NCBI GenBank assembly: GCA_036488875.1
Contig: DASXGW010000001.1
Span: forward strand, 310,001-374,000
Source: Candidatus Baltobacteraceae bacterium
Lineage (GTDB): Bacteria; Vulcanimicrobiota; Vulcanimicrobiia; Vulcanimicrobiales; Vulcanimicrobiaceae
Reading direction: 5' to 3'
Length of the DNA: 64,000 bases
In this document: piece after piece, positions 12,170 through 32,051 of the stretch
How positions within the stretch are numbered: position 1 is the first letter of the stretch
How the letters are laid out: every line of letters begins with the position of its first letter
Program-made: the position numbers and the translations under genes
Notes under the pieces: model-generated
Databases searched by the model: none
What the model saw: the letters and a program-made list of their open reading frames with translations, nothing else
Told to the model about the DNA's origin: nothing

Positions 12170-12564
12170 GCGCCGAAGTCATCGCGCGCATCGGTGCCAT
12201 TCTCGACACTACCGAAATGCGGGAGTTGCGCGCGCGGCATGCCGCCGAGGCGGTGCGCGCGGCGCGCGGCTACCGGTGGGTCGGCATCCACGAGATCGAC
12301 GACAACGAGATGGAGCTGATCGGGCACACCGGCGTCCAAGCACCGGTTGAGGTGCGCGGTTCGGTCGACGACGGTCCCAACGGTAAAGCGATTGCGTTGC
12401 GCGAGACAGTCGTGTCGGGCGATACGGCGATCGTTCCGATCTTAGGCGCGGAGACCGGCATCGTCATCGGCACGCTCGACGTCGAAAGCGACGACGCGTT
12501 CGGCGACGAGGACAAACGGTTCTTGGAAACGTGCGCGCAAGCGCTGATGCCGCTTTTCGAATAG
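12166..12564 (+). CDS. Stand-alone GAF domain protein
   Basis: 132 residues consisting of a single GAF fold: an N-terminal helix, YRWVGIHEIDDNEMELIGHTG, the middle SVDDGPNGKAIALRETVVSGD, and the end IVPILGAETGIVIGTLDVESDDAFGDEDKRFLETCAQAL. GAF domains bind nucleotides or small metabolites. It resembles free-methionine sulfoxide reductases in layout but lacks their cysteine set, so it is likely a sensor. GTG start overlaps the purM stop by 4 bases (GTGA), so it is translated with purM. Its stop overlaps the GTG of the next gene by one base (TAGTG). Confidence 0.8.
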   Translation: MSAEVIARIGAILDTTEMRELRARHAAEAVRAARGYRWVGIHEIDDNEMELIGHTGVQAPVEVRGSVDDGPNGKAIALRETVVSGDTAIVPILGAETGIVIGTLDVESDDAFGDEDKRFLETCAQALMPLFE

Positions 12565-13703
12565 TGCGCGAACTGTTCAATCTCGTTGTAGATTTGGGGC
12601 GCCTCCCCTTCGACTTCGCCTGTCCTGAGCGTAGCGAGCTACGCGAGCGAAGTCGAAGGGCTCAGGATGACAGTGTTGCAATTGACGAGCGAACGTTAGC
12701 CTGGATCGACGACGAGTTCGGGGGGACGTGGAGCTCGGAAGCACATGCCGGGAGCACTGTCGTCGCGCGCGACGATGCGGGTACGCCGAGCGGCTTCGCG
12801 ACCTACGATGCGAAAGGCATGCGGTTTCGGTGGCTGCGCGGGTTGGCGCTGGAACCGGGCGTCGGCGTCTTTGGGCCGATCGGCGTCGCGCGCGATCGGC
12901 GCCGGAACGGTATCGGGACCGAACTGCTCTTCGCCGCGCTTAACGGGCTGCGTGGGCGGGGATACTCACGAGCGTTGATTGCGGCGGTAGGAGAAGAGAA
13001 GATCATCGACTGGTATCGTCATGCTGCCGGTGCCGAGATCGCCGAGCGCTACGACGTTGCAGCGCTCGTGCCGCGACGTCCGCGCGTCACCGTGATGGTG
13101 TCGGGCAGCGGAACCAATCTCCAATCGGTGCTCGATCGTTCGCGCAGCGGCGAGCTGCCGATCGACGTCGTTGCGGTCGTTTCGAATAACGCCGGCGCCT
13201 TCGCACTCGAACGTGCAAAGAAGGCCGGCGTACCGTCGCGACGCGTCGTTACCTGGAAACGAAAGGAAGAGGCGCGCGAAGCGTACGATCTGCGGCTGCT
13301 CGAGGAGGTGCGCGCCGACGAGCCGGATCTCGTGCTGATGCTCGGGTGGATGCATCTGTTATCGGAACCATTCGTGCGGGCATTCCCGTCGTTGTTGAAC
13401 GTGCATCCGGCGTTCTTGCCGCTCGAACCGGCGCGCGACGACGTCGTGATGCCCGACGGTACGAAAATGCCGGCGTATCGTGGGCCCGACGCCGTCGGCG
13501 ACGCGCTGCGCGACAAACAGCTTTGGACTGGCGCGACCGTACACACGGTGACTGCCGACACCGACCGCGGACCGGTCGTCGCGCGTAAGCCGTTACCCGT
13601 TACCGCGGGTGAAACGCGGGATCAACTGATGCAGCGCCTGCATCCGCTCGAGCACGACCTGGTCGCGACGGCGATTCGGCGCTGGCTCTACGAGCAACCG
13701 TGA
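12564..13703 (+). CDS. purN: GNAT acetyltransferase-PurN fusion
   Basis: A 379-residue two-domain protein. Residues about 40-170 form an N-acetyltransferase: FATYDAKGMRFRWLRG, GPIGVARDRRRNGIGTELL (acetyl-CoA loop) and a WYRHAAG end. Residues about 172-379 are glycinamide ribonucleotide formyltransferase: VMVSGSGTNLQSVL, catalytic Asn and His in LNVHPAFLP, and Asp in TADTDRGPVV. PurN has a family variant insertion between HPAFLP and YRGPDA. Residues 12-37 are encoded by a palindromic repeat (12599-12672) and carry no domain. The GTG start is the only one that fits the operon; the first 12 residues have no clear homology. Confidence 0.88.
   Translation: MRELFNLVVDLGRLPFDFACPERSELRERSRRAQDDSVAIDERTLAWIDDEFGGTWSSEAHAGSTVVARDDAGTPSGFATYDAKGMRFRWLRGLALEPGVGVFGPIGVARDRRRNGIGTELLFAALNGLRGRGYSRALIAAVGEEKIIDWYRHAAGAEIAERYDVAALVPRRPRVTVMVSGSGTNLQSVLDRSRSGELPIDVVAVVSNNAGAFALERAKKAGVPSRRVVTWKRKEEAREAYDLRLLEEVRADEPDLVLMLGWMHLLSEPFVRAFPSLLNVHPAFLPLEPARDDVVMPDGTKMPAYRGPDAVGDALRDKQLWTGATVHTVTADTDRGPVVARKPLPVTAGETRDQLMQRLHPLEHDLVATAIRRWLYEQP
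12599..12672. repeat. Palindromic repeat, copy A, inside a gene
   Basis: A 74-bp element with a 14-bp perfect inverted repeat: CCCTTCGACTTCGC at 12606-12619 against GCGAAGTCGAAGGG at 12647-12660. An inner arm CCTGAGC (12624-12630) also matches GCTCAGG (12660-12666). It starts GCGCCTCCCC and ends GGATGACA, as in copies B and C. It is read in frame in the GNAT-PurN gene and encodes FACPERSELRERSRRAQDD. Confidence 0.8.
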
Positions 13704-14827
13704 CGACCGTTGTCATCGCTCCCGATAAGTTCAAAGGCGCGCTGACCGCGATGCAGGCGGCGCAGGCGATCGAGCGCGGCGTCAAGCGCGCGTCGGCGGA
13801 TATTGAGTGTAAGCTTTGTCCTATGGCCGACGGCGGCGAAGGCACCGTCGAAACGTTTCTCGACCGCGGCGCGAAGCGCATGACCGCGCGCGTGCGCGGA
13901 CCGCTCGGCAAGCCGGTCCAAGCCGCCTTCGCGATCGACGATCGTACCGCGATCGTCGAGATGTCGAGCGCATCGGGCTTGGGATTGCTCGATACATCGC
14001 AGTACGATCCGACGAAGACGGACACGTTCGGCACGGGCGGTTTGATTACGGCGGCGTTGAGCGCCGGCGCGCGACGCATTATCGTGGGCTTGGGCGGCAG
14101 CGCGACCAACGACGCCGGAACCGGGATGCTCCGCGCGCTGGGCGTGCGGTTTCTCGACAAAAACGGCGACGAACTGCGCGAGGGCATCCTCACGTACGAG
14201 CGTTTGGCTTCCATCGATATCGAAGGCCTCGACGATCGCGTGCGCGACGTGCAGATCGATGCTGCGGTCGACGTCGACAATCCGTTGTGCGGTTCTGATG
14301 GTGCGTCGTACACGTTTGCGAAGCAGAAAGGCGCGACACCCGAACAGATCGAGCGCCTCGATGCGGTGCTGGAACACATCGCCGACGTCGCGGCGCGCGC
14401 GCTAGGTCACGACGAACGCAACACGCCAGGCGCCGGTGCGGCGGGCGGTTTGGGATTCGCGCTCGTTGCGTTTCTGGATGCAAAGCTCGAGCGCGGGGTC
14501 AAGTTGATTGCCGACGAGGTGGGTCTGCCGGAGATGATGCGCGGCGCGTCGTTGTGCATGACCGGTGAAGGCAAGGTCGACATGCAGACGTTGCATGGAA
14601 AGACCGTTGCCGGCGTCGCGGAGATCGCGCGCGACTGCGAGGTGCCCGTGATTGCGTTTGGCGGCAAGGTCGAAGACGACGCAAAGGCCGCGCTTTCGGA
14701 GCGCGGGATTGAGGCCGTGCAGACGGCGCCACCGGAAATGCCGGCCGAGCAAGCGATGGGGAAAGCCGGGGAATGTTTGGAAGAGGCCGCGGCAAGCGCC
14801 GCGAATGCCTTCTTCCATGGCCGCTGA
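13700..14827 (+). CDS. Glycerate kinase
   Basis: A glycerate 2-kinase of the GlxK/GarK family (375 residues) that phosphorylates D-glycerate with ATP, feeding it into lower glycolysis. Diagnostic blocks: VVIAPDKFKGALTAMQAAQAI at the start, MADGGEGTVETF, VEMSSASGLGLL, DTFGTGGLITAAL, VGLGGSATNDAGTGML and PGAGAAGGLGFAL. GTG start overlaps the purN stop by 4 bases. Its C-terminus overlaps the following sensor gene by 11 bases. Why it sits in a purine operon is unclear; a link through glycine, serine and one-carbon metabolism is possible (inference). Confidence 0.93.
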   Translation: MTTVVIAPDKFKGALTAMQAAQAIERGVKRASADIECKLCPMADGGEGTVETFLDRGAKRMTARVRGPLGKPVQAAFAIDDRTAIVEMSSASGLGLLDTSQYDPTKTDTFGTGGLITAALSAGARRIIVGLGGSATNDAGTGMLRALGVRFLDKNGDELREGILTYERLASIDIEGLDDRVRDVQIDAAVDVDNPLCGSDGASYTFAKQKGATPEQIERLDAVLEHIADVAARALGHDERNTPGAGAAGGLGFALVAFLDAKLERGVKLIADEVGLPEMMRGASLCMTGEGKVDMQTLHGKTVAGVAEIARDCEVPVIAFGGKVEDDAKAALSERGIEAVQTAPPEMPAEQAMGKAGECLEEAAASAANAFFHGR

Positions 14828-16511
14828 CGGGGCGTTCGCACCCCGGCGTTTTATATTACCGGCATTCAGCCTGGTATGGCTCGTGCTGTTGTGGATCAGC
14901 CTCTTTCACGGTCCCGTGTACGAACCGTCTAAGATCGAGTGGAACGGCTGGGGGACCGCGGCGGTCATCGTTGCGCCCGATCCCGACTTAGCGAGCCAAG
15001 GCGTCAAACCCGGCACGGAAATCGACGTCGCGCACATGTCGATCGCCCAAAGAACGCGTCTGGAGTTCGGGGTACCCGCGGGGACTTTGCTGTCGATACC
15101 GATCGAAGAAGCCGCCGGGACGCGAGTCGTTTGGGCTCGAGCGCACGAGCTGTGGACGAATGCGAAATCGACCTCGCCACTCGAAATCTGGACCGAGTGC
15201 GTTACTTTGACGTTCTCGTTGGTCCTGGCCGGATATCTAGGTTATCGAAGGCCGGGCGTGATGGTTCTTGCGCTCATACTGTTCATCGCCGGCGGCGGGA
15301 TCGATTGGGCGGAGATCGCACAAGCTTTGACGGCAATGCCGGATTGGGTTCTCGAGCCGGTCGACGTTTTGATGAATGCGCTTTGCGGCGTCTTTCCCGC
15401 GCTCGCGCTGGCCTCATTTGCGATTCGATTGCCGGGCGGCGAGACGTCGCCGGAGAAACGCAAAATCATTCCTTTCATCGACGGCATCGTCGTGCTAGGT
15501 CTCGTACTGGCGCCGTTCGTCCTCTCCGATGCAGCCGTAAGAACCTATCTAGCCTTTTCCGCCGTCATCGTAATCGTCGCATCCATTTTGTCGCTCCGGT
15601 ATGCCCGGGCCGCCGATCGCGCGCGAGTCGCGATCGTATTCGCGGCGGTCATGATCGGTGGCGTCGCCTATGCGTTGGCGGTGATCGGGTTGACGTTCGC
15701 CGGAGCAACGGCTTTCTTATTCTCGTTGGGGAACCTCTCGGTCGTCATCGTCCCGGTTGCACTCGCCTACGCGATTCTGCGGCATCGCGTGTTCGACGTC
15801 GTCTTCGTTTTGAATCGCACGATCGTCTACGTTCTGACGTCGGCGTTCTTGATCGTGCTGTTGGCGGCGCTCGAGTTCGGCGCGGAACGCTACATCGATA
15901 CGATGACGCGAGCCGAGGGCATCGCGCTTCAGTTCCTCATCGCGCTGGCGGTTACCGTCAGCGCGGGGTTCGCGCATCGCCGCATCGATCAGGCCGTCGA
16001 TCGCGTGCTCTTCCGTACGCGGCATCAGCAAGAGGAGGCGCTGCGCAAGTTTGCGACCACGGCGCAGTTCTATACGGCCGAAGAGCCGTTGATTCGCGAC
16101 ACGGTCGATGCGTTGACGCGGTTTGGGCGCGTTGAAGGCGCGGCAGTGTACTTGGCGACGATGAGCGACATGCGGTGCGCGGCGTCGGCATTTCGCGATG
16201 CGACCGCGGCGGTCGACGAAAACGATCCGGCCTACGTTGCGCTGCGCGCGCACCGTGACGAGCTCGACACGCACGACGTGCAGACGGCGTTTCCCGGCGA
16301 GCGCTTATATCCGATGGTATTGGCGGGGCGACTGGCCGGCACGCTTGCGACGGGCCGCCGCGAGAACGGTGAGGCCATGCCACCCGACATCGACGATGCG
16401 ATTCGCCGCGTTGCGTCGGCTGTTGCCATTGCGTTGGCAGCGATCGAAAGCGATCGTGTTCGTGAAGAGAACGCAACTCTGCGACAGCGCCTGGGCGTTC
16501 AGGTGGTGTAG
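14817..16511 (+). CDS. PDZ/multi-TM/GAF-like sensor protein, paralogue 1
   Basis: 564 residues. Order: one N-terminal TM helix (residues 10-25), a PDZ-like external domain (about 30-115, with ASQGVKPGTEI), about eight TM helices (120-385), a helical linker (RRIDQAVDRVLFRTRHQQEEALRKFA) and a C-terminal GAF-like domain (about 420-560). The segment LAYAILRHRVFDVVFVLNRTIVYVLTSA is the hallmark of sensor modules that usually precede a histidine kinase, but no HisKA or HATPase domain follows. It probably senses a signal and acts through another protein. I choose ATG 14817; ATG 14805 is also in frame. Only 2 bases separate it from its paralogue. Confidence 0.75.
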   Translation: MAADGAFAPRRFILPAFSLVWLVLLWISLFHGPVYEPSKIEWNGWGTAAVIVAPDPDLASQGVKPGTEIDVAHMSIAQRTRLEFGVPAGTLLSIPIEEAAGTRVVWARAHELWTNAKSTSPLEIWTECVTLTFSLVLAGYLGYRRPGVMVLALILFIAGGGIDWAEIAQALTAMPDWVLEPVDVLMNALCGVFPALALASFAIRLPGGETSPEKRKIIPFIDGIVVLGLVLAPFVLSDAAVRTYLAFSAVIVIVASILSLRYARAADRARVAIVFAAVMIGGVAYALAVIGLTFAGATAFLFSLGNLSVVIVPVALAYAILRHRVFDVVFVLNRTIVYVLTSAFLIVLLAALEFGAERYIDTMTRAEGIALQFLIALAVTVSAGFAHRRIDQAVDRVLFRTRHQQEEALRKFATTAQFYTAEEPLIRDTVDALTRFGRVEGAAVYLATMSDMRCAASAFRDATAAVDENDPAYVALRAHRDELDTHDVQTAFPGERLYPMVLAGRLAGTLATGRRENGEAMPPDIDDAIRRVASAVAIALAAIESDRVREENATLRQRLGVQVV

Positions 16512-16513
16512 AA

Positions 16514-18181
16514 GTGGAACGAACCAACAGAATTGCTTCCTACGCGCTGGCTCTCTTTGCGTTCCTCTGGCTAACGGCGATTTTGGCGTTAGATGTTTTG
16601 CCGACGGCTTACGCAGTCGACCTCCGCTCCAAAGTGGTCGGACGGGAGGTCGTCGTTACGTCGGTAGGGCCGGACGCCGCGCGCGCCGGACTCCAAGTTG
16701 GGGACGCGATTCCGTTCGACGCGTTGTGGTACGCCCGCCAATTTGGGCCTGAGGGTGGAATGCTGCGGCTGCCCGTGCGCCGGGGATCTCAGACGCTTGC
16801 GTTGACATTGCCGCTCACGAGGCCGATTCGGGCGATCCCGGTATTCCAGAGCGTGTTGACCGACGTCGCTATAACGTTTGCGCTGCTGCTCGCCGCGTAT
16901 CTGGGATTCCGAAAGCCGAGCGTAATGATAGCGGCGTTGATTTTATTCTTGGGCGGCGGCGCTTTGTCGTGGCCAGATTTCGTCGCGCTGTTTTCTGCGT
17001 TACCGGATTCCATTTACGTTCCGTTCGCCTGGACGATGATCGTATTGTGCGAATGGTTCCCAGTCATGGCGCTGGCCTCGTTTGCGATCCGGCTTCCCGG
17101 CAGTGCACCCTCAAAATCGCAGCAATCGGCGATACGAATCGTCGATGGCATCGTGATCGGCTCGTTCTGTACCGCTTTTGGGCTGCTGGCAGCGGGGGTG
17201 TACCGCCAGACAGACCTCCCGTGTACCGCGCTTTCCGGAATCGTCGTGCTGCTTGCGAGCATGGCCGCGCTGTTGCTTGCGCGTCCGGCGGACCGCGGCC
17301 GAACCGGCATCGTCTTTGGCGGCGTGGTGTTCGGCGGCGTCGGCTACGCTGCCAATATGGTCGGGCTCCGATTAGGTGAGCCCTATTGGCTGTTCACCGT
17401 CTACGCAAACCTGTCGGTCGTCGTCGTACCTTTAGCGTTGGCTTATGCGATTCTACGTCACCGCGTTTTCGACGTCGCCTTCGTACTGAACCGTACGATG
17501 GTATTTGCTCTGACGTCGGCCCTCGTGATCGTCCTCTTCGCGGCCTTAGAGTTTTTGGTCGAACGCTTTTTGAGCGACGTGACGCACGTCGCAGGGATCA
17601 TTCTGCAGTTCGGAATCGCACTCGCCGTTACGCTCAGCGTCCGGTTGATGCATCGGAGGGTCGATTCTCTGGTCGATAACGTCCTCTTCCGGTCACGGCA
17701 CGAACAGGAAAATGCCTTACGGCGGTTCGCGTCGACCCTCCAGTTCTATACGGAGGAAGGGCCGCTGGTGCGCGACACCATTGACGTGCTTCTTCGGTAC
17801 GGACGCGTCGAGGGTGCGGCGATCTATTTAGCTGGGGAGACGGGCCTCAAGCAGGTTCAGTCTTCGTTTTCCGTGGCCGCTCCGGAGATCGAGCATAACG
17901 ACATGGCGTACGTCGAGCTGCGAGCGCACCACGAGCCGCTGCACGTCCATAAGATGCCGACGGCCCTTCCGGGCGACCGGCTTTATCCGATGGTCCGCGC
18001 TGGTCGAATCGTCGGCGTGGTCGCGACCGGCGAACGGGAAAGCGGCGAAGAAATGCCGCCCGATATCGACGAAGCCATCATTCGCATCGCCCATGCGGCG
18101 GCAACGTCGCTAGGCGCGATTGAGAGCGATCGCATTCGTTCCGAGCTGACTGCATTGCGAGTACGGCTGGGATTTAGCTAG
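16514..18181 (+). CDS. PDZ/multi-TM/GAF-like sensor protein, paralogue 2
   Basis: 555 residues with the same architecture as the preceding gene and clear similarity along the whole length: PDZ-like region with AARAGLQVGDAIPF, TM region with GYAANMVGLRLGEPYWLF and YAILRHRVFDVAFVLNRTMVFALTSA, linker VDSLVDNVLFRSRHEQENALRRFAS, and the GAF-like C-terminus ending RLYPMVRAGRIVGVVATGERESGEEMPP. It also has no kinase domain. GTG start, 2 bases behind paralogue 1, so the pair arose by tandem duplication and the products may pair. It is the last gene of the purM operon. Confidence 0.75.
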   Translation: MERTNRIASYALALFAFLWLTAILALDVLPTAYAVDLRSKVVGREVVVTSVGPDAARAGLQVGDAIPFDALWYARQFGPEGGMLRLPVRRGSQTLALTLPLTRPIRAIPVFQSVLTDVAITFALLLAAYLGFRKPSVMIAALILFLGGGALSWPDFVALFSALPDSIYVPFAWTMIVLCEWFPVMALASFAIRLPGSAPSKSQQSAIRIVDGIVIGSFCTAFGLLAAGVYRQTDLPCTALSGIVVLLASMAALLLARPADRGRTGIVFGGVVFGGVGYAANMVGLRLGEPYWLFTVYANLSVVVVPLALAYAILRHRVFDVAFVLNRTMVFALTSALVIVLFAALEFLVERFLSDVTHVAGIILQFGIALAVTLSVRLMHRRVDSLVDNVLFRSRHEQENALRRFASTLQFYTEEGPLVRDTIDVLLRYGRVEGAAIYLAGETGLKQVQSSFSVAAPEIEHNDMAYVELRAHHEPLHVHKMPTALPGDRLYPMVRAGRIVGVVATGERESGEEMPPDIDEAIIRIAHAAATSLGAIESDRIRSELTALRVRLGFS

Positions 18182-18193
18182 CAGCGCAACGAG

Positions 18194-18222
18194 TTTCTCG
18201 CTTTCGGCGCTACGCTCAGGAT
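18194..18222. repeat. Palindromic repeat, copy D, partial
   Basis: TTTCTCGCTTTCGGCGCTACGCTCAGGATG-like stretch matching the right half of copies A-C (CTACGCTCAGGATG is shared), with the left end missing. It lies 12 bases behind the last gene of the purM operon, in non-coding DNA. Confidence 0.5.
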
Positions 18223-18373
18223 GCGTCAAGCGCTTGTAAAAGCGAAGAACCCCGCGTAATCCTTACACGGGGCTCGTCGGGTTCCCAAAAACTCGCTATC
18301 GGTGAAGCAAAAATAGCAGTCGAAAGGTACTCCGGTCAAGGATGCTTTCCATTTCTTTGCCGAAGAACGCCGT

Positions 18374-18697
18374 GTGTTAAGCGCAAGTAATTTGGAAGTC
18401 AACTCCGTGCAAAGAGCGTACGTTCTGTACGTCCCGGAACATCGCGCCGCGCGGATGCCGCTGGTATTGGTGTTCCACGGCGGCGGCGGGGCCGGCCGGC
18501 GGGGCCGGCCGGCGCGGCCCATCTCGGTCATCCTTTTAACGGCGGGGACGTGATCAGCCCGCGAATGGGCAAGGTGCTCTCGGCCCCCGGCACCGTCGCG
18601 TTCTGGGCGAAGGTCGACGGCTGCAAGCCGAGGCCCCGCCACGGCGGCGACGTTCTACCGGGTGGACGGCGGCGGTCACACCTGGCCGATGCGTTGA
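18374..18697 (+). pseudogene. PHB-depolymerase-type esterase remnant (LpqC family)
   Basis: The only sizeable gap without an intact gene (18182-18782) holds pieces of a secreted esterase of the PHB depolymerase/LpqC family. The N-terminal piece reads RAYVLYVPEH then MPLVLVFHGGGGAG, the oxyanion region. About 45 bases later a second frame reads FWAKVDGCK, and then the first frame resumes with FYRVDGGGHTWP, the catalytic-His end, before a stop at 18695. The middle with the Ser nucleophile (about 150 residues) is missing. A GC-rich doubled 13-mer at 18484-18510 marks the junction. So the gene was destroyed by internal deletion plus frameshift. Confidence 0.72.
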
Positions 18698-18782
18698 ATA
18701 AATCGCACGTATCGTGAAGAGTGGTTACGGGGGCAGGCCGGAGGGTAAGTAGGCATGGGGTGGCCCCTTTAGGAGGTGGCGC

Positions 18783-19184
18783 ATGGAACCCGTCGTCGTC
18801 GTCTTTGCCGGTGAATATAATCTTGGTTCTAAGGGCAAGCTCCACCGCGAGTTGAGCCGCCTTGCAACCAAACCGCGTCTAGTGCTCGACTTCAGCGAAG
18901 TGACCTACATGGACTCGACGTGTATCGCCGAGCTCATGCGAATGGAGCAGCGGCGTAGCGCCGCCGGCTTCGACGCCGCACACGTCGTGATGCAGGCGCC
19001 GGTGCTGTTGCGCATCTTTACGGTGCTGACGCTCGATCGCGTCTTTCGCGTCGTGTCGACGCTCGCTCAGGCCATCGACGCCGACCTCGAGGGATTGCAC
19101 GTCGAATACGCGTTTTGCGGTGACGATGGAACCGCGAAGGTTCCAGTCGACTTCGAGCGCGAGCGCCTCGCAGCTACGGGCTAG
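18783..19184 (+). CDS. STAS-domain anti-sigma factor antagonist
   Basis: A 133-residue protein of the SpoIIAA/RsbV type. The phosphorylation-site block LVLDFSEVTYMDSTCIAELMRM is at about residues 38-59, with Ser in DST as the likely phosphorylated residue. Such proteins, when unphosphorylated, bind an anti-sigma kinase and free a sigma factor. No partner kinase or sigma factor gene is adjacent. A near-perfect Shine-Dalgarno (AGGAGGT) lies 5 bases before the ATG. The C-terminal 35 residues go beyond the STAS fold. The last 11 bases overlap the convergent glycosidase-like gene. Confidence 0.85.
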   Translation: MEPVVVVFAGEYNLGSKGKLHRELSRLATKPRLVLDFSEVTYMDSTCIAELMRMEQRRSAAGFDAAHVVMQAPVLLRIFTVLTLDRVFRVVSTLAQAIDADLEGLHVEYAFCGDDGTAKVPVDFERERLAATG

Positions 19185-20067: not shown

Positions 20068-20082
20068 CGTAAGGCCGAAGAG

Positions 20083-22884: not shown

Positions 22885-25800
22885 GAACTCTCGCTTTCTG
22901 CTATCGCGCGTTGCGCGCGCTCGGTGAACTCGTCGAGGTTGTCCCTCCGCGCAGTCTCGAGCGCTCGTCGAAACGACTCGAGCGCGCCGGCCGTGTCCGG
23001 CGGATCTTTGCGTGAGAGCAGTTCGCCTTCGAGACGATGCAGCTCGGACTCCCACCAGCGTTCGCCCCAATGGGTCACTCCTGCGAGTCCTTGACGCGCC
23101 GAATCGAGCCCTTCGTCGACGCGACCTTCATTCAAGCGCGCCTGTGCGAGCATGGTCAGCACGCGCGATTTAACCATGAGCGCGCTGTGCTCCTCGACCA
23201 TCGCAAGCGCCGAAACGAGCATGTCCTCACCCGTGCTCTCATGGCCGTCGGCTGAGAGGAGCACACCGAGCTGCGCCTTGCAGGTCGCAAGCCACAGCGC
23301 AAACCCGTGCTCCTTCGCGAGGTCGTGCGCCTGTTGGACTTCGGCGAGCGCGCGCTTCATATCGCCGCGTAAGTAATGAAACAGGGCGCTCCACGAGAGC
23401 ATCGCCGCCATCTGAAACGGCGAGTTTAAGGATTTGGCGATCCTTGCCGCGGAATCGATATGGTCCTGCGCCGTGTCGGACCGCTTTGCCAGCCATAACG
23501 TAATCGCAATGCCGAGCTCGCACGTCATCCCAGGATTCTGTCCCGCAAGCGCCATCGCCGATTCGCGTTCGCCGGCTTCGAGCATTTCGTAGATCTCGAT
23601 GCCGCGTTCAAATGCGGGAAGCGCGTCGGTGAGGCGAGAGGCATGGAAAAGGGTCAATCCGCGCGCCAGATGTGCCGCCAAAACGAGCACTCGGTTATCG
23701 AGCCGATCCGCGATTTCTACGAGTCGTGCCGAGATTTCTTGGGCTTCGTCGATCGACGCGTGTGCCAGATAGAACCGGACCAGACCAAACAACAGCAGCC
23801 ATCGCTGCGGATCCATCGAGTCGTCGCGCAAGTTGCGCGTCACGCGCTCGAGCCAGTAGCGTCCCTCCCGCCACTGTCCGCGTTCGTACCAGTATCGGTG
23901 CAAGACGCCGGCCAGCGATAGAGCGGCGGGTGCATCGTCCTCCCGCGAAAGCGCCCATTGGAAAACGGCGCGAAACTCCGCATAGTCGCGTTCGACGGCT
24001 GCGAACATCGCCTTCGATTCCGACGCCGCCGCTGCGTAGGCGGCGTCGGCCGCACGGCAAAAGTGATCGGCACGGCGTTGCTGCATCGCATCCCACTCGG
24101 CGGCGTCTGCGAGACGTTCGAGTGCGAACTCTTTGGTCGAGTCGAGCAGCCAATAGCGCGCCACGTCACCGCCGGGCTCGAACTGAACGAGCGACTTGTC
24201 GACGAGATGGCCGAGCAGGGTAACGATGTCTCGCTCGTCGAGCGGCTCGCCGGCGCACACCGCGCATGCGGCATCCATCGAGAAGTCGCCGGCGAATACC
24301 GCCAGCCGTCGCAACAGCGCCTTTTCGTTTTCGTCGAGCAGGTTATAACTCCAGCCGATCAGCCCGCGCAAGGTCTGCTGACGCGGCAATGACGTTCGCC
24401 CGCCGGTCAGAACGCGAAACCGGTCGTCGAGACGCCCGCGCAGTTCGGTTACGGTCATCGTCTTTACGCGCGCGGCGGCCAATTCGATGGCCAAGGGGAT
24501 GCCGTCGAGCCGCCGACAGATTTCCTTGATCGCGCTCATGGTTTCGGGGGTCGGGTCGAACGTTCTAACGACGGCGCGCGCACGACTGACGAATAATGCG
24601 ACCGATTCCTCTTCTCTGAACGTGGAAACGCGAAAGAGGCTCTCGCCGGGGATATCGAGCATCTCGCGGCTCGTGGCGATCACTTGGAGCCAAGGACACT
24701 GCTCCAACAGGCGATCGACCAGCACCGCAGCCTCACCGATCAGATGCTCGCAGTTGTCGAGAACGATCAAAGCCTTTCGTTCGCTCAGATGAGCGGCGAG
24801 TGTGTCGTCGGTGTCGCGACCGGCGGCCTCGCGTACGCCCATCGTCGCAAGTGCGGTGGCTGAAAGAAATACGCCTTCGGCGATCGGTGCGAGATCGATA
24901 AACCACACGCCGTCGGGGAACTGCTCGAGGTTTCGCTGGCCGTACTCGATGGCCAATCGCGTCTTTCCGACGCCGCCCGGTCCGACGATGGTAACCAGAC
25001 GCGCGCCGGTCAGCAGCGCTCCGATCTCGGCGATCTCGTCTTCCCGGCCCAGAAACGACGTGCGCATTGACGGCAAATTGTGGCGAAGTGTCGCTTGCCG
25101 TACGGCCGGAGGCGCTTCGGACGAGTAACCGTCGCTTGTAACGCGATTGCGCCCCGCTGCCTTGGCGCCGTACAGGTGAAGGTCGGCTGAGGCCGTGAGT
25201 GATTGCGGCTCGGTCTCGGTGTCGGGAATCACGCTGGCGCAGCCGACGCTTACCGTCACGTGACCCAGCGACGATCCTTGATGCGGAATCTGGAGCTCGC
25301 GCACGGCGACGCACGCGGTTTCAGCGACTTGTCGTGCGTTGGCGAGCGTCGTTTCCGGAAGCACGATCGAAAACTCTTCGCCGCCGTAGCGTGCCACCAC
25401 GTCGCCGGGCCGGCTCGCGCAGCGTCCGATTGCTTCAGCGATCTGCCGTAAGCACCCGTCGCCGGCAATATGTCCGTACGTGTCGTTGAAGAGCTTAAAG
25501 AGGTCGACATCGAAGAGCAGCACGCTGAGCGGAGATTTGCTGCGCGCGCAGCGTTGCCACTCGCGCGCCAACGCTTCGTCAAAGCCGCGGCGGTTGCCGA
25601 CGCCGGTTAACGGATCGGTCGTGGCTTGGTGTTTGAGGTTGGCCATTTCAAGACGTTCGTGCTCGTCGTGAATGCGAGCGCCGAGGTAGATCGCGCAGCT
25701 CTCCAGCATCGCGACGTCCTCGATATCGTATGCGCTGCTTTGGTGCGATCTCACGGACAGCGCTCCGACGATGTTGCCGCCAAAGGCGACCGGGACCAAG

Positions 25801-26108
25801 ACCGCCGAGGGGGGCCCCTCGTACAGGATCGATTCGCCACCGCTGAGGACTTGGCGCATCCGGCTATCTTCGGCCATCTTTGCGTCTTCCGGGCGGAGAC
25901 CGACGCCGTCTTCAAAGATGTACTCGATCCGGGCATCGCTGGCATCGCCGATGGCTAGCAACACGCTCTTCGCCTCGACGAACTCAGAAAGAAGCGCGGC
26001 AAGCTGCACCATGGTTTCCTGTAAGGGAAGCGCCGACGCAAGCAGCTGTGCCGAGCGCCGAATCAGGTCGCGTCGTTGATGGGGCCGCTGCTCGCGCGAC
26101 GATCGCAA
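22812..26108 (-). CDS. GAF-GGDEF-STAND ATPase-TPR signalling protein
   Basis: 1098 residues from TTG 26108 (AAGG 9 bases upstream, just behind DUF5069). Domains: GAF about 20-165; GGDEF about 175-335 with active-site GGEEF at 242-246 and an inhibitory-site RPGD exactly 5 residues before it; STAND/NB-ARC ATPase about 350-620 with Walker A GPGGVGKT (Lys382) and Walker B KALIVLDNCEHL; a winged-helix-like segment (GWSYNLLDENEKALLRRLAVF); then TPR-type helices from about 700 to 1060. It should make cyclic di-GMP under control of a ligand, with the ATPase/TPR part as a switch. Such ATPases are more usually fused to nucleotide cyclases or DNA-binding domains. Confidence 0.9.
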   Translation of the reverse strand: MRSSREQRPHQRRDLIRRSAQLLASALPLQETMVQLAALLSEFVEAKSVLLAIGDASDARIEYIFEDGVGLRPEDAKMAEDSRMRQVLSGGESILYEGPPSAVLVPVAFGGNIVGALSVRSHQSSAYDIEDVAMLESCAIYLGARIHDEHERLEMANLKHQATTDPLTGVGNRRGFDEALAREWQRCARSKSPLSVLLFDVDLFKLFNDTYGHIAGDGCLRQIAEAIGRCASRPGDVVARYGGEEFSIVLPETTLANARQVAETACVAVRELQIPHQGSSLGHVTVSVGCASVIPDTETEPQSLTASADLHLYGAKAAGRNRVTSDGYSSEAPPAVRQATLRHNLPSMRTSFLGREDEIAEIGALLTGARLVTIVGPGGVGKTRLAIEYGQRNLEQFPDGVWFIDLAPIAEGVFLSATALATMGVREAAGRDTDDTLAAHLSERKALIVLDNCEHLIGEAAVLVDRLLEQCPWLQVIATSREMLDIPGESLFRVSTFREEESVALFVSRARAVVRTFDPTPETMSAIKEICRRLDGIPLAIELAAARVKTMTVTELRGRLDDRFRVLTGGRTSLPRQQTLRGLIGWSYNLLDENEKALLRRLAVFAGDFSMDAACAVCAGEPLDERDIVTLLGHLVDKSLVQFEPGGDVARYWLLDSTKEFALERLADAAEWDAMQQRRADHFCRAADAAYAAAASESKAMFAAVERDYAEFRAVFQWALSREDDAPAALSLAGVLHRYWYERGQWREGRYWLERVTRNLRDDSMDPQRWLLLFGLVRFYLAHASIDEAQEISARLVEIADRLDNRVLVLAAHLARGLTLFHASRLTDALPAFERGIEIYEMLEAGERESAMALAGQNPGMTCELGIAITLWLAKRSDTAQDHIDSAARIAKSLNSPFQMAAMLSWSALFHYLRGDMKRALAEVQQAHDLAKEHGFALWLATCKAQLGVLLSADGHESTGEDMLVSALAMVEEHSALMVKSRVLTMLAQARLNEGRVDEGLDSARQGLAGVTHWGERWWESELHRLEGELLSRKDPPDTAGALESFRRALETARRDNLDEFTERAQRAIAESESSWDTAKAADASKKNAKSPGGAIKP

Positions 26109-26116
26109 GATGACCC

Positions 26117-26554
26117 TTACTTCGCGCGCCGGCGGCGATCGTCGGCGTCGACGATGTCGATAATAATCTCGAGCTCCGGATGCAGCGCCAGCGTCTCGGC
26201 GTATTCTTCGCGGAACCAGGCTTCGTCCTCGGCGTGTTTGGGCTTGATCCGCTTCAGCGTCTCCTTGATCGCCGGGTATTGCGACGCATCGGTGTGCCCG
26301 CGCAGCCACGCGGCGACGCCATCTTCGGTATCGCACGCGGTGACCGCTTCGAATAACGCTTGTTCGGTGACGCCCAGGCGCTCGAGCAAATAGCCCGAGA
26401 TCCCTTTGATTTTACCGTTGATGAAGTAGATACCAGGATCGCCGCCGGGTAATCGTCCGCGCAGCTTGTCGATCGTTCGCGGCATGAGCATGAGGCCGTC
26501 GAGCTCCGCGTAGCAACTGCGCGGTGGTCCGTTACGAAGATCGAGTGGTTGCAT
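26117..26554 (-). CDS. DUF5069 domain protein
   Basis: A 145-residue soluble protein of the DUF5069 family: MQPLDLRNGPPRSCYAELDGLMLMPRTIDKLRG at the start, a short variable loop, then the helical LLERLGVTEQALFEAVTACDTEDGVAAWL. Its function is unknown. ATG start. It lies between tsaD and the GGDEF-STAND gene, 8 bases before the latter, so they are probably cotranscribed. The C-terminal 20 residues are highly charged (DADDRRRRAK). Confidence 0.8.
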   Translation of the reverse strand: MQPLDLRNGPPRSCYAELDGLMLMPRTIDKLRGRLPGGDPGIYFINGKIKGISGYLLERLGVTEQALFEAVTACDTEDGVAAWLRGHTDASQYPAIKETLKRIKPKHAEDEAWFREEYAETLALHPELEIIIDIVDADDRRRRAK

Positions 26555-26564
26555 GATACTCCTT

Positions 26565-27581
26565 TTAGGATGCGGGTTCCAGCTCGAACGCCAGATTCGG
26601 ATCGGCGGAGAGCGTCAGCGGATCGACACGGGTCGCGTCGCGTTGATGGTACGCAGCGGCAGCGATCATGGCCGCGTTGTCGGTGCAGTACTTGGGCGGC
26701 GGAACGAACGCCGTGACGTTATTGCGTTCGCTCCATCGGCGAAACGCCGTCTGCAGCGCGGAGTTGGCCGCGACGCCGCCGGAGAGCACGACCGCGTTGT
26801 AGCTATCGCGTGCAAATGCGGCTTCGAGGCGCGCCATGAGCACGTCGACGACGGCGGCTTGAAACGATGCGGCGACGTCTTCGGGCTTTGCGTTTTGCCC
26901 GGCGTCGGATTCTAGAAAATACCGGACGGACGTTTTGAGGCCGGAAAACGAGAGGTCGAGCGAATCGCCGCTGGGACGATGGCGCGGAAAGGCGTGCGCG
27001 CGGGGATTCCCGCGCTGCGCCATGCGATCGAGCTGTGGACCGCCGGGGTATGGGATGCCGAGCAGTCGTGCCGTTTTATCGTACGCTTCGCCGGCGGCAT
27101 CGTCGTGCGTGCGGCCGACGATCGACATGCGCGTGGCGGATTCCACCTTCACGAGTTGCGAGTGACCACCCGAAACGAGCAACGCGAGGAACGGATAGGG
27201 CGGCGCTTCGGGCTGGTCCAGAAATGCGGCAAAAATGTGGCCGTGTAAATGATTGATGCCGTAGAGCGGCTTGTCGAGTGCGAAGGCGAGCGCCTTGGCC
27301 GATGCAACCCCGACGACGAGACTGCCGATGAGTCCCGGTCCGCGCGTGACCGCGAGTGCGTCGACGTCGTCGAACGTCGTCCCGGCCCGGCCGAGCGCAT
27401 CCTCGACCGCCGCTGAGAGCAGCGCAACGTGCTGGCGGCTGGCGATTTCGGGCACGATGCCGCCGTACTTCGCGTGGAACGCGTCTTGATTCGTCGAGAC
27501 CGAGGCGAGCACGTCGCGGCCGTCGCGCACCAGCGCGGTGGCCGTGTCGTCGCACGACGTCTCGATCCCCAGCACCAACAT
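26565..27581 (-). CDS. tsaD: tRNA threonylcarbamoyladenosine transferase
   Basis: Catalytic subunit for the t6A37 modification of ANN-decoding tRNAs, acting with TsaB, TsaC and TsaE. 338 residues from ATG 27581 (MLVLGIETSCDDTA). ASKHA-fold blocks: KYGGIVPEIASRQH, VTRGPGLIGSLVVG, the metal-binding His pair in INHLHGHIFAAF, LLVSGGHSQLV, GEAYDKTARLLGIPYPGGP and VLSGGVAANSALQ. tsaB, tsaC and tsaE are not in the window. The downstream DUF5069 gene starts 10 bases later. Confidence 0.97.
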   Translation of the reverse strand: MLVLGIETSCDDTATALVRDGRDVLASVSTNQDAFHAKYGGIVPEIASRQHVALLSAAVEDALGRAGTTFDDVDALAVTRGPGLIGSLVVGVASAKALAFALDKPLYGINHLHGHIFAAFLDQPEAPPYPFLALLVSGGHSQLVKVESATRMSIVGRTHDDAAGEAYDKTARLLGIPYPGGPQLDRMAQRGNPRAHAFPRHRPSGDSLDLSFSGLKTSVRYFLESDAGQNAKPEDVAASFQAAVVDVLMARLEAAFARDSYNAVVLSGGVAANSALQTAFRRWSERNNVTAFVPPPKYCTDNAAMIAAAAYHQRDATRVDPLTLSADPNLAFELEPAS

Positions 27582-27624
27582 TAAGAGGCGGGGGTTATCG
27601 TTGCGGCGGCTCGAAGCCTTCGGC

Positions 27625-28269
27625 ATGCAAGACGTAAACGAAGCAATGCGGCTGCCCTCTCCGGCGCCGCGCCCTCAGTCCATTGCCTTTGACGGGGAGT
27701 GGCTTTGGATGGGCTCGATTGAGACCAGTCGCGTGTACGCGATCGATCCGCACCAGTGGCGCGTGATGGAAGAAGACCGGGCGCCTGGAAAACCGTGGGG
27801 CATGGCCGTGGTCGGCGACGAGCTGCGCGTGATCTGCGGCGAAGGCGACGGCGATAGTCGGTTCATTCGACGGCTGGTTCCCGGCCACGGTTTCAAGACG
27901 CAAGAGACGATCCAATGTCCCGACGATACCGGATCGCAGCTCAGTTACGACGGCGTGCGGCTGTACGTGAGTCAGTGGTACAACAAGCGCATCCTCGGAA
28001 TCGACGAGCAGGGCAACGTCGTGCGCACGATCGAGGTGCCGCGCGGCGTCTGCGGTCAATGCTTCGTCGACGGAGCGTTCTACGTACTGACCACCGACGA
28101 CGAAGAGACCGACGACTATTTTTTGATGAAAGCACACGTCAACGGCGGAACGCCGAAGTTCGAAGACATCGCTCGCGTGCCTTTCCACGCACGTGCCTTG
28201 GCCTTCGACGGATCGCGGTTCTGGACGAACCATCGCGAAAACAACGAAATCGTTGCTTTCACCCCGTAG
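27625..28269 (+). CDS. Beta-propeller-like protein
   Basis: 214 residues with repeated blade-like units: QSIAFDGEWLWMGSIETSRVYAID, SQLSYDGVRLYVSQWYNKRILGID, GQCFVDGAFYVLTTDD, RALAFDGSRFWTNHRENNEIVAF. Each blade has the pattern hydrophobic-DG-x-LW. This recalls six-bladed NHL or glutaminyl-cyclase-like propellers, though at 214 residues it holds only about five blades. No signal peptide. ATG 27625 or the ATG at 27646 could be the start. It diverges from tsaD with 43 bases between. Function unknown. Confidence 0.68.
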   Translation: MQDVNEAMRLPSPAPRPQSIAFDGEWLWMGSIETSRVYAIDPHQWRVMEEDRAPGKPWGMAVVGDELRVICGEGDGDSRFIRRLVPGHGFKTQETIQCPDDTGSQLSYDGVRLYVSQWYNKRILGIDEQGNVVRTIEVPRGVCGQCFVDGAFYVLTTDDEETDDYFLMKAHVNGGTPKFEDIARVPFHARALAFDGSRFWTNHRENNEIVAFTP

Positions 28270-28918
28270 GGAGTCCGGCGAGAGAGACCTGATCTCGGCG
28301 ATACGCGATATCGTCGAGATCGTCGCCATTATCGCCGCCGGCTGCTGGGCATTCTACGTGTTCGCCTACGAAAATCGCATCAAACCGTCGTTTGCAGAGC
28401 CGGAAGTCAACGTTACGGCGTCTATGCGGCTGCTGAGCGTGCACAACGGTTTGATCGGCATCGGGATTCACACGCAGTTTCATAACGTCGGTACGGTGCC
28501 GGCGCACTTCTTAGCTTACGCGGTGAGCGTTTACGGGCAACGCGTCACGCCTCAAGTTCCGTCAGCGCACAAAACGAATCCCGGCCTAAAAATCGACGAT
28601 GCGATGTTTTCGCGGATCGACAAGCCAACAGCCGTCTACACGTGGGGCTACATCACGAAACAGGGCAACCCGGCATCAACACAAGAAAGCGGCCTCGACC
28701 CGGGTAGCAGTTTGGAGAACGATCAGATCTTTTACGTGCCGCAAGGCCGGTTCGATTTGCTCACAATGGCCATCGATGCTCCGTACACGAAGTATGACGA
28801 TACCATGCCGGCAAGTCTTGTGTATCAACCCGACGGTGGACTCAAGGTCAATATCGCGATCTCGGACCGGATGGATCAATTCAACATCCGTCCGGTGACC
28901 TCGCTCGATATCCGCTAA
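28253..28918 (+). CDS. Single-TM hypothetical protein
   Basis: 221 residues that I do not recognise. One TM helix near the N-terminus (IVEIVAIIAAGCWAFYVFAYE) is followed by a probably external domain rich in beta strands (VNVTASMRLLSVHNGLIGIGIHTQFHNVGTVPAHFLAYAVSVYG). The layout suggests a membrane-anchored beta-sandwich. The TTG at 28253 is the first start before the helix and overlaps the propeller gene by 17 bases. It ends 4 bases short of the convergent phosphoesterase gene. Confidence 0.62.
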   Translation: MLSPRRESGERDLISAIRDIVEIVAIIAAGCWAFYVFAYENRIKPSFAEPEVNVTASMRLLSVHNGLIGIGIHTQFHNVGTVPAHFLAYAVSVYGQRVTPQVPSAHKTNPGLKIDDAMFSRIDKPTAVYTWGYITKQGNPASTQESGLDPGSSLENDQIFYVPQGRFDLLTMAIDAPYTKYDDTMPASLVYQPDGGLKVNIAISDRMDQFNIRPVTSLDIR

Positions 28919-28922
28919 ACCG

Positions 28923-30413
28923 CTATTCGGTGTCGGGCGGAACCGCGTCTGCGTTCGAGTTGGTAAATTTCGACGGCGGATACTTCGTCTTTATCGGCGT
29001 GAAGGCGCGCGGCGTTTGACGGAAATCGAAGCCCCCGAGGACGTTCGCGCGACAATCCGTGTAACCGAAACCGTTGGCCGGCGCTGCGGGACAGCTCCCA
29101 CCGATCGGCGGCAACTTGAACACCGTCTCGATGAACTTCAATATACTGCCGGGCTCGTAGAGCGTCTTGTCGACTTTATTTCGTAGCGCGTACGGAGAAA
29201 TCACCATCAGCGGCGTGCGGATTCCGAGTCCCCGGAAATCCATTTGCGGCGGTGGAATGGGGTCGTACAATCCGCCCCAGTCGTCCCACAGCACGACGAT
29301 GGCCGTCGAGTTCCACTGCGGCCCTTTTCCAATCGCGTTAACAATGGCGGAAACCCACGACGGTCCTTCGTCTGTGACGTAGGGGCCGGCGTGATCGGAA
29401 TACGTGCCGTCCGGTACAACCCACGTGACGCCTTTGAGCTTACCGTTTTGCGCGGCGGCAAGAACGTTGGTCTGCGGCGAGATGACGTTTGACCAGTCCG
29501 GGCCGTGTCGGACCGCGTCGATAGCGGAAAACGGCGACCAAATGTAGTCGCCTGGTTTAAAGTTCTTCGTCGTCGGCGTATAGAATTGCCAAGACACACC
29601 GCGGGCGTCCAGCGAATCGGCAATCGTCCGGTACTGCGTGAAACACGGGTACGGACCCGCCGCCGGCTTTACCGTTCTCTGCGCGTCGAGCAGTGACGTT
29701 CGCGCAAAAGCGGGAGAATCGCAGCTCCAGGACGAGCTTGAGCTGACTTCGACAACGCCGTCCTTGTTGAGCAGCCCGGGGTAGTTGACGATCGCCAAGT
29801 TTCGCGCTACGTCCGTCGTGCCGGCGACGAGGTACTGGTGCGCGGTAAAGCTGGGGCCGAAGTCGGTCGGGAAATAGTGGTCCGCGAGGACGTACTGCAT
29901 CGCCATTTTCCAGTATGGGCCGGCTTCGTCGACATAGTTTGGCGCGTCGTTCGGAACGTAGACGTATGGCGAATGTACTCCCGACGTTCCGACCGCAGGG
30001 CGGGCGAGGCTGGGGCAGCTGGTGAGAGGCCATTTCTCGGGATACTCGAGATAAAAGCCGTCCATCTTTCCGTGATCCCACGAGACCATAGCTTCGTCCC
30101 AACAATGCGAGATGTCCGCGATCGACTGCTGGAAGCCTCGCGGACGAAGCGGAACGATACGCGAGCCCGCCTTACCGGTCGACCGCGTCTCGGCCCCCGG
30201 ATAGCCCATGAACAGATTGTTGAAGCTGCGGTTTTCCTGGATGATGATGACGATGTGCTGGATGCACGTGTAGTTGGCGGCCGGACAGGGCGTTGGCCCG
30301 CTTGGAATCGGAGTGTGCGAGCCATGCGGCATCGTCGACGCGGTTCCCGAGCACCCGGTGACGATTGCACAGCCAAAGAGTAATACGAACAACGAACAGA
30401 GCAAAGCGCGCAT
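28923..30413 (-). CDS. Phosphoesterase (phospholipase C-type) lipoprotein
   Basis: 496 residues of the phosphoesterase family that includes bacterial phospholipase C and acid phosphatases. The lipoprotein signal ends in AIVTGC. The metal-binding start of the enzyme is IQHIVIIIQENRSFNNLFMGYPGA (Glu and Asn ligands). Other family blocks: DHYFPTDFGPSFTAHQYLVAGT, ITWVVPDGTYSDHAGP-like region and STAIVVLWDDWGGLYDP, where the Asp pair would complete the site. It probably releases phosphate from lipids or other esters outside the cell. A GGGGAGG Shine-Dalgarno lies 5 bases before the ATG. It follows a MFS-VOC pair on the same strand. Confidence 0.88.
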   Translation of the reverse strand: MRALLCSLFVLLFGCAIVTGCSGTASTMPHGSHTPIPSGPTPCPAANYTCIQHIVIIIQENRSFNNLFMGYPGAETRSTGKAGSRIVPLRPRGFQQSIADISHCWDEAMVSWDHGKMDGFYLEYPEKWPLTSCPSLARPAVGTSGVHSPYVYVPNDAPNYVDEAGPYWKMAMQYVLADHYFPTDFGPSFTAHQYLVAGTTDVARNLAIVNYPGLLNKDGVVEVSSSSSWSCDSPAFARTSLLDAQRTVKPAAGPYPCFTQYRTIADSLDARGVSWQFYTPTTKNFKPGDYIWSPFSAIDAVRHGPDWSNVISPQTNVLAAAQNGKLKGVTWVVPDGTYSDHAGPYVTDEGPSWVSAIVNAIGKGPQWNSTAIVVLWDDWGGLYDPIPPPQMDFRGLGIRTPLMVISPYALRNKVDKTLYEPGSILKFIETVFKLPPIGGSCPAAPANGFGYTDCRANVLGGFDFRQTPRAFTPIKTKYPPSKFTNSNADAVPPDTE

Positions 30414-30442
30414 GCTGTCCTCCCCTTTTTGAGGTCTTCGGC

Positions 30443-30651
30443 TTACTCAGCGATCAATTCGATGCGATTGCCGAAAGGATCGCCAACATAGCAGTGAGAG
30501 TGCCCGTCTTGCAGCGCCATGTCTTCGACGATTTCGTAACCGGCGTCTCTTATGCGTTTCACAAACGTTTCGTAGCGCAGTAGAACCGGCGGGCCGCGTC
30601 GTCACCACCAGCCGGCATGGCTAGCTGGACGTGATCGATTTCGGTGATCAT
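30443..30651 (-). pseudogene. VOC/glyoxalase family gene with internal deletion
   Basis: The 5' part reads MITEIDHVQLAMPAGGDDAARRFYC, the standard start of a vicinal-oxygen-chelate protein. It then runs out of frame to a stop at residue 31. In another frame the 3' part continues FVKRIRDAGYEIVEDMALQDGH, then YVGDPFGNRIELIAE and a proper TAA. The central 40-50 residues of a normal 120-130-residue protein are missing. The ATG overlaps the MFS stop by 4 bases (ATGA), showing the intact gene was translated with the transporter. Now presumed non-functional. Confidence 0.75.
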
Positions 30652-31973
30652 GGTGCTTCGGGTACGAAGGCGGCGTCGCGGTTTTCGGGTTTCACGAAAT
30701 AGCCGATTGCGGTGAAGACGAGGACGGCGGCAAACATGATTAGCGAGATGATGGCCATCGCGCGCCCGTAATCGGCGGTGCCGTTGGCCAACGGGAAGTT
30801 CTTCGTGGCGAAGTGGGCTTCCATTTGGGCGGCACCCGCGCTGATGAGGTTGCCGATCTGATACGTGAAACCGGGGAACGTGCCGCGTGAGCCGGCGGGA
30901 GAGAGTTCGTTGAGGTGCGCCGGAATGACGCCCCACGCCCCCTGCACCATGAACTGTATGGCGAACGCACCGATGGCAAGCGCGACCATCGTCTGACTGA
31001 ACGCCCAAAGCGGCACGCATACGGCGCCGAGAAGCGCGGCGATCAATAGTGCCGGGCGCCGTCCGATGCGTTGCGAGAATGCACCGAATGCAATGCCGCC
31101 GGCGATCGCACCGAGCGCAGCAATTATCGATAACGACGACGTCATTCCGGTCGAAAAACCGTGCTGCACTTGCAGGAACGTCGCGTACAGGTCTTGCGTG
31201 CCGTGCGACATGAAGTTCATCGCCGCCATAAACAACACGGTGTAAATAAAGAGGGGAAGGTTGGCCGCGATTGATGCGCCTGCCCTTCTACTTCGCTCGC
31301 TCCGCTCGCTACGCTCAGGATGACAAAGCGGATCGCTACCCCTATTACGATGGGAGGCGAGCCAGGCGGGGGATTCGGGGACGTGGCTGCGGATGTAGAA
31401 GATGAGCAGCGCCGGCAGCGTGCCGACGACGAAGAGAATGCGCCATGCGTAGTGCGCCGCGCCGAACTGATCGGCGAAGTGGAAGACGATGAAATACGCG
31501 GCCGCCGCCAGCAAGTAGCCGACCATGTAGCCTTCTTGCAGCAATCCGCTAAAGAAGCCGCGCTTTTGCGGCGGGAGTGCTTCCATCGCCATCGCCGCGC
31601 CGAGCCCCCATTCGCCGCCCATGGCGACGCCGTAGAGCGCGCGCAGCACTAAGAAGATCGTGAAGTTCGGCGAGAACGCGGTCAGCAGCTCGATGACGGA
31701 ATAAAATGCGATGTCGATCATCAACGGAGTGCGCCGGCCGTAACGATCGCCGATCCAGCCGAAAATCAGCGCGCCGAGTGGGCGGCATGCCAGCGTGAGC
31801 GTAATGGCGGCTGTGACTTCAACGATCCCGCTCTTGAAGTCGGCCGCGATCTTCGAGACAACAAAGGTCAGGAGAAAGAAATCGAACGCGTCGAGCGTCC
31901 AACCTAAGAAGCTCGCAATGAAGGTTCTGCGAGCTGCGGGCGATAGAGTGGAGTCGGTTTGCGACAGGCTCAA
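30648..31973 (-). CDS. MFS transporter, carboxylate/SHS-like, with repeat insertion
   Basis: 441 residues from TTG 31973, 12 TM helices. Blocks FLGWTLDAFDFFLLTFVV (helix 1), GWIGDRYGRRTPLM (loop 2-3), FLVLRALYGVAMGGEWGLG and WRILFVVGTLPALL-VRSHVPESPAW resemble proton symporters for lactate, sialic acid or aromatic acids. The cytoplasmic loop between helices 6 and 7 contains CHPERSERSERSRRAG, encoded by palindromic repeat copy B. The frame extends a further 28 codons upstream through repeat copy C, which I exclude because helix 1 begins soon after TTG. Translationally coupled to the VOC pseudogene downstream. Confidence 0.86.
   Translation of the reverse strand: MSLSQTDSTLSPAARRTFIASFLGWTLDAFDFFLLTFVVSKIAADFKSGIVEVTAAITLTLACRPLGALIFGWIGDRYGRRTPLMIDIAFYSVIELLTAFSPNFTIFLVLRALYGVAMGGEWGLGAAMAMEALPPQKRGFFSGLLQEGYMVGYLLAAAAYFIVFHFADQFGAAHYAWRILFVVGTLPALLIFYIRSHVPESPAWLASHRNRGSDPLCHPERSERSERSRRAGASIAANLPLFIYTVLFMAAMNFMSHGTQDLYATFLQVQHGFSTGMTSSLSIIAALGAIAGGIAFGAFSQRIGRRPALLIAALLGAVCVPLWAFSQTMVALAIGAFAIQFMVQGAWGVIPAHLNELSPAGSRGTFPGFTYQIGNLISAGAAQMEAHFATKNFPLANGTADYGRAMAIISLIMFAAVLVFTAIGYFVKPENRDAAFVPEAP
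31273..31325. repeat. Palindromic repeat, copy B, inside the MFS gene
   Basis: A 53-bp element beginning GATGCGCCTGCCC and ending CTCAGGATGACA on the plus strand, with CGCTCGCTCCGCTCGC in the centre. Its first 13 bases are identical to copy C and its end matches copies A and C. Translated on the minus strand it gives CHPERSERSERSRRAG in the loop between TM6 and TM7. Confidence 0.8.
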
Positions 31974-32000
31974 CGTGGAACGGGTACTACGCCGCGTTTT

Positions 32001-32051
32001 GATGCGCCTGCCCGTCGACTTCGGCGCTTCGCGCCTACGCTCGGGATGACA
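32001..32051. repeat. Palindromic repeat, copy C, upstream of the MFS gene
   Basis: A 51-bp element: GATGCGCCTGCCC, GTCGACTTCGGCG, a small hairpin GGCGCTTCGCGCC (32023-32035), and CTCGGGATGACA at the end. It lies 28 bases before the TTG start of the MFS gene and just after a terminator hairpin, so it could influence the 5' leader. Confidence 0.78.

Follow-up and report, generated by a model that had tools for sequence, protein, structure and literature searches.

A probable REP-like, non-autonomous repeat family with in-frame copies inside protein genes of a Candidatus Baltobacteraceae bacterium

Two superfamilies of REPs have been defined, namely the GTAG and the CGTC REPs, and both are biased towards the 3' ends of genes (Di Nocera et al. 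2013, PMC3733652). In-frame intragenic REPs occur in many species, including within repair and tRNA-related genes, and the CGTC REPs, to which the Rickettsia palindromic elements RPE-4 and RPE-6 belong, come without a transposase (PMC3733652). An earlier note on the DNA described below had reported a dispersed palindromic repeat that is translated inside genes and had considered such an equivalent of the Rickettsia elements to be unreported. In view of the cited records this holds for the particular sequence and not for the phenomenon: within the literature that we covered (open-licence, and therefore incomplete) there was no paper on this sequence, and the matches listed when the sequence or its peptide strings were searched for were all unrelated.

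The stretch of DNA that was analysed (hereafter the window) spans 64,000 nucleotides, i.e. positions 310001-374000 of contig 1 in a 3.7 Mb assembly of 15 contigs that is 97.6% complete and has a G+C content of ~62%. The features that are relevant here are the following (positions are those of the window).

12564..13703, + strand: GNAT plus PurN-like formyltransferase gene that contains copy A; likely start GTG at 12564
12599..12672, + strand: copy A, a long composite form of the element (CCCTTCGACTTCGCCTGTCC...CGAAGTCGAAGGGCTCAGGATGACA) with a strong hairpin, in frame inside the GNAT-PurN gene
18206..18223, + strand: remnant of the element's right half, an exact 18-mer (GGCGCTACGCTCAGGATG, expected 0.00), intergenic
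30648..31973, - strand: MFS transporter gene (Sugar_tr/MFS_1) with an in-frame element
31273..31325, + strand: full element within the MFS gene, in antisense orientation to it and read as CHPERSERSERSRRA, in the cytoplasmic loop between TM6 and TM7
32001..32051, + strand: full element, intergenic, 28 bp before the MFS gene's likely start at 31973

The ends GCGCCT[GC]CCC and GGATGACA, originally proposed to be common to four sites, are indeed present at 12599, 31273 and 32001, and the latter two copies share the identical left end TTGATGCGCCTGCCC that had been pointed out. The site at 18194-18222, which had been taken for a related copy with both ends, lacks the left end, terminates in GGATGCGT and amounts to an 18-base remnant outside genes. 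The placement of the other copies stood up to scrutiny. Copy A is internal to the GNAT-PurN gene and does not merely reflect an over-extended start, because the residues NLVVDL that precede it are conserved in orthologues; the start at GTG 12564, which overlaps the stop of the preceding gene, is supported by the conserved ELFNLVVDL. The copy at 31273, which answers to copy B of the earlier note, lies in frame in the MFS loop, where the 18-residue insert is missing from all 20 orthologues compared, and the copy at 32001, the note's copy C, lies just before the MFS start as described; no element was found in the gap of the same-genus relative that is syntenic with this last site (gap 43).

Alignment of the copies in 609 kb yielded the consensus GA[TG][GT]CGCCTGCCCTTCGACTTCG, followed by a variable inner arm and CTACGCTCAGGATGACA, together ~50 bp, and the conservation ends abruptly after GACA and ~11 bases before CCTTCG. 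This detailed set comprises 83 copies and covers ~16% of the genome, in stretches that were picked around copies plus five control stretches. In the genome as a whole, for which the earlier note had proposed a count, the strict pattern GCGCCTSCCC-N0-60-GGATGACA has 43 matches versus 0 for the reversed control, and the 13-base end GCTCAGGATGACA has, with one mismatch allowed, 121 matches versus 1. On the complementary strand nearly all copies terminate in TGTC, the tagged end reading TGTCATCC and the opposite end GGCAGGCGCATC. In most copies GTAG adjoins the inner hairpin on one strand, at an internal position 13 bases from the conserved end. Copies are also found in clusters, in tandem arrays with a period of 59-60 bases and as 30-bp partial repeats. 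One locus (L037:4534-5635; contig 1, 68533-69634) holds two facing tandem arrays of 9 and 4 copies with this period, ~370 bp apart, and a single convergent gap elsewhere (L066:4302-4918) holds seven copies in both orientations, at a place where the gap in the same-genus genome measures only 3 bp.

The inner parts are variable and often self-complementary (CGCCC-TTC-GGGCG, GCGC-TTC-GCGC, CGTCC-TTTT-GGACG, TGCCC-TTC-GGGCA), the changes on the two arms being paired, and the element is predicted to fold with ~4 outer pairs, gaps and then an inner hairpin of 4-6 bp with a 3-base loop. Other inner parts are iterated (e.g. CTCGCTGCGCTCG) and fold poorly, and it is to this type that the copy at 31273 belongs, which folds worse than its own shuffles and forms no stable hairpin. 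The term palindromic is appropriate for copy A (fold z = -4.0) and for the many genome copies with inner hairpins, and inappropriate for the copy at 31273. Strong secondary structure was rejected as a general rule on the basis of the average fold of the copies, which is not stronger than that of mononucleotide shuffles (mean z 0.13), and of DNA folds, and an Rfam search with the elements gave no match to a known RNA family.

How does the element relate to the described repeats? Like the CGTC REPs (including Rickettsia RPE-4 and RPE-6 and Neisseria dRS3) it is a short dispersed repeat that is present in several phyla, has in-frame intragenic units and comes without an associated transposase (here no PF01797 match in the genome), and it has one of the CGTC/TGTC/CCTC ends, namely the TGTC that many CGTC REPs also carry at the tagged end. 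However, the CGTC REPs have a stem of 8-9 bp that starts with A-T pairs, a loop of 4-5 bases and a CCA-like 3-base tail, and they rarely cluster, whereas the element has an interrupted stem, a variable inner hairpin, a 3-base loop and a GCGCATC end, and does form tandem clusters. With the GTAG REPs and REPINs it shares a dispersed and clustered distribution near gene 3' ends and sometimes inside genes; yet in those repeats GTAG is terminal and adjacent to the stem and a RAYT gene resides in the genome or lineage, whereas here GTAG is internal and not constant within the genus, and no Y1/RAYT gene was detected. The in-frame insertion into diverse protein genes resembles that of Rickettsia RPE-1, which is set apart by its description as a longer element. 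As the insertions lie in frame in real genes and are missing from the orthologues, the earlier comparison with the Rickettsia elements, as a dispersed and non-autonomous element with in-frame gene copies, is supported. We call the family nearest to the REPs, especially the transposase-less CGTC REPs, and it fits neither defined superfamily.

Genes were called with a home-made codon-usage caller, and the intragenic cases were backed by Pfam, PDB or orthologues. Only 15 of the 83 copies fall in called genes versus ~75 expected under random placement (90.7% coding, p = 3e-55), which represents a strong depletion. The intergenic copies are located near stop codons, convergent gaps being enriched for the element (odds 5.0, p = 5e-5) and divergent gaps being depleted of it (p = 0.02). 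Together with copy A of the window there are 16 copies in 14 genes, all of them in frame. These genes encode (according to Pfam/PDB) IleRS, Dxr, MiaA, DnaX, a PabB-PabC fusion, an Lhr helicase, PDH E2, hydantoinase A, an SDR, an amine-oxidase family protein, a radical SAM protein, a Rieske oxygenase, the MFS transporter and PurN, and some of them (IleRS, Dxr, DnaX) are generally regarded as essential. Each copy adds ~14 to 20 predicted amino acids and leaves the reading frame intact; the linkers of PDH E2 alone contain three copies (L056:3231-4922).

A preference for a reading frame, which had been suggested as a test, did not emerge from these data. Three frames are in use, and among the 68 intergenic copies three frames are open in nearly all (66, 62 and 61), two more in about half (39 and 31) and the last in 1, which implies that in-frame survival needs no special preference. 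Of the in-gene copies, 12 are read in antisense (as CHPERS... or VILS...) and 4 in sense (as ...AQDD), a difference (p = 0.08) that, with most frames open, establishes no real preference for strand either. The core lengths of the in-gene copies are not uniform modulo 3, and the exact inserted unit therefore varies.

The earlier note had asked whether orthologues lack the insert, and they do. For the 13 carrier genes other than the MFS gene, this element is missing from the orthologues in as many as three other genera of the family, with one exception-like case, the PDH E2 of genome G022, which has a VILSLSKD segment that resembles a copy of the wider family. The comparison with a genome of the same genus (G001), the proteins of which are 55-78% identical to those studied here, is more intricate. 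In six genes (MFS, Dxr, MiaA, DnaX, Rieske and PurN) G001 does not have this element, and in eight others (Lhr, amine oxidase, E2, hydantoinase A, SDR, PabB-PabC, IleRS and radical SAM) the same loop holds its own version, i.e. GTCCTTCGACTNCG...CTGCGCTCAGGATGACA or the short CCCTTCGACA...CAGGGTGACA. At the PabB-PabC site one species has the short and the other the long form. The elements of the two genomes are oppositely oriented in two of these genes, those for the amine oxidase and IleRS, which is most simply explained by independent insertions at a single tolerant position. In many copies of G001 GTAG is replaced by GCAG. Between genes, 18 syntenic gaps could be compared: G001 has no element in 14 of them, a partial motif in one and an element in three. 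A clean junction or target duplication was not seen in 21 pairwise alignments with G001, the flanks being too diverged. Two further G001 loci are of interest: the PDH E2 orthologue contains a run of RASAQDD repeats of its own, which gives the impression that the linkers are built from such repeats, and the loop of the Dxr gene (L219) that corresponds to the insertion site is occupied by a different insertion, which is G+C-rich and palindrome-like (GGGGACCCCGGCGGCTCCGCCGACGGGG...). By these comparisons the elements are real, lineage-specific insertions that are kept where they are tolerated.

Taken together, the four sites in the window are very probably members of a REP-like, non-autonomous family of interspersed repeats that is shaped by insertion, by the loss of copies that break genes and by survival in tolerant places. 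Copies would land at many places, and selection would then remove those that disrupt genes. The survivors would be mostly intergenic, with convergent 3' ends over-represented, in addition to those in protein loops and linkers where the frame stayed intact, and genes would read them as predicted CHPERS..., VILS... or ...AQDD peptides, which may be near-neutral. The spread itself could proceed by copying through a trans-acting enzyme or through a replication or recombination process. The species-specific sequence at shared loops would fit repeated insertion into the few places that tolerate it or the conversion of one copy by another, and in the two cases with opposite orientations repeated insertion is favoured.

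Somewhat doubtful is the possibility that no transposase is involved at all and that the elements arise, spread and are replaced via replication slippage, template switching or recombination among copies. Such processes could account for the tandem arrays with a period of 59-60, the 30-bp partial repeats, the short and long forms at PabB-PabC and the species-specific versions in the same loops; nevertheless, the many unrelated new sites (14 of the 18 comparable intergenic sites being empty in G001) and the opposite orientations at two shared loops are hard to explain in this way. We consider it unlikely that the family is a RAYT/IS200-type REP that was moved by a Y1 tyrosine transposase since lost or missed. 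The REP-like distribution, the 3'-end bias and the tandem clusters agree with such an origin, as does the GTAG next to the inner hairpin, given that the E. coli RAYT cleaves GTAG (PMC3733652), although this GTAG is internal and replaced by GCAG in many G001 copies. A profile search for the Y1 transposase (PF01797, RAYT/IS200), positive for the E. coli control, gave no match in this genome and none in 59 of the order's 61 genomes, among them those that hold 70-237 copies, and the two positive genomes carry only 19 and 1 end motifs. The assembly (15 contigs, 97.6% complete) is such that a mobiliser could be missing from the sequence; the lack of a Y1 match in all high-copy genomes of the order favours a non-autonomous REP-like repeat with another spreading process.

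It is quite improbable that the elements persist because of a function, namely as hairpins that end transcripts or stabilise mRNA, with the intragenic copies as a by-product. The enrichment in convergent gaps, the proximity to stop codons, the conserved ends and the complementary inner arms in many copies could be read in this manner, but purifying selection alone would give the same location bias, the average structure does not exceed that of composition-matched shuffles (mean z 0.13) and the elements are lineage-specific. Virtually no probability remains for chance, for composition or for shared coding sequence of ancient origin, the objections that had been anticipated from the outset, since despite the G+C-rich motif and genome (~62%) base composition is ruled out by the reversed-pattern controls (0-1 versus 43-121 matches) and the shuffles, and ancient coding sequence by the orthologues without the element.

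The repeat family, as we read it, extends well beyond this genome. Of the order's 61 genomes, 39 contain the end motif, the maximum being 237 copies versus 0 in the controls, and within the phylum the matches are almost confined to this family. The two-part pattern occurs, among the matches listed, in Acidobacteria, Fibrobacter, Clostridia, Candidatus Moranbacteria, Peribacteria, Phycisphaerae, Rickettsiales, Dehalococcoidia, Gemmatimonadetes, Balneolaceae and Alistipes, and among the matches listed in the named collection Candidatus Eremiobacterota is a frequent carrier. Tentatively, an insertion process that is independent of Y1 and widespread in bacteria might repeatedly put species-specific versions of such repeats into the same tolerant loops in either orientation; if so, it would continually provide otherwise compact genomes with new segments of protein. 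In-frame insertion of the REP type is hereby extended to a poorly studied, uncultured lineage and to genes that are generally taken to be essential (those for IleRS, Dxr and DnaX). The related genomes offer sites with and without the element, which makes it testable what moves REP-like elements that lack a RAYT and what share short repeats have in new protein sequence. For annotation, the implication is that a CHPERS-, VILS- or AQDD-type peptide in a protein can stem from an inserted repeat and not from conserved sequence. Intragenic copies are found elsewhere as well: G030, a genome from another genus of this family, has 24 distinct copies, 4 of which lie inside genes (including those for Mfd, adenosine deaminase and MazG), and one in-frame copy is found in an HrpB-type helicase of Fibrobacter. 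In the MazG gene of G030 (L314) short-form repeats stand in tandem and are read as VLRQAQDDKG units.
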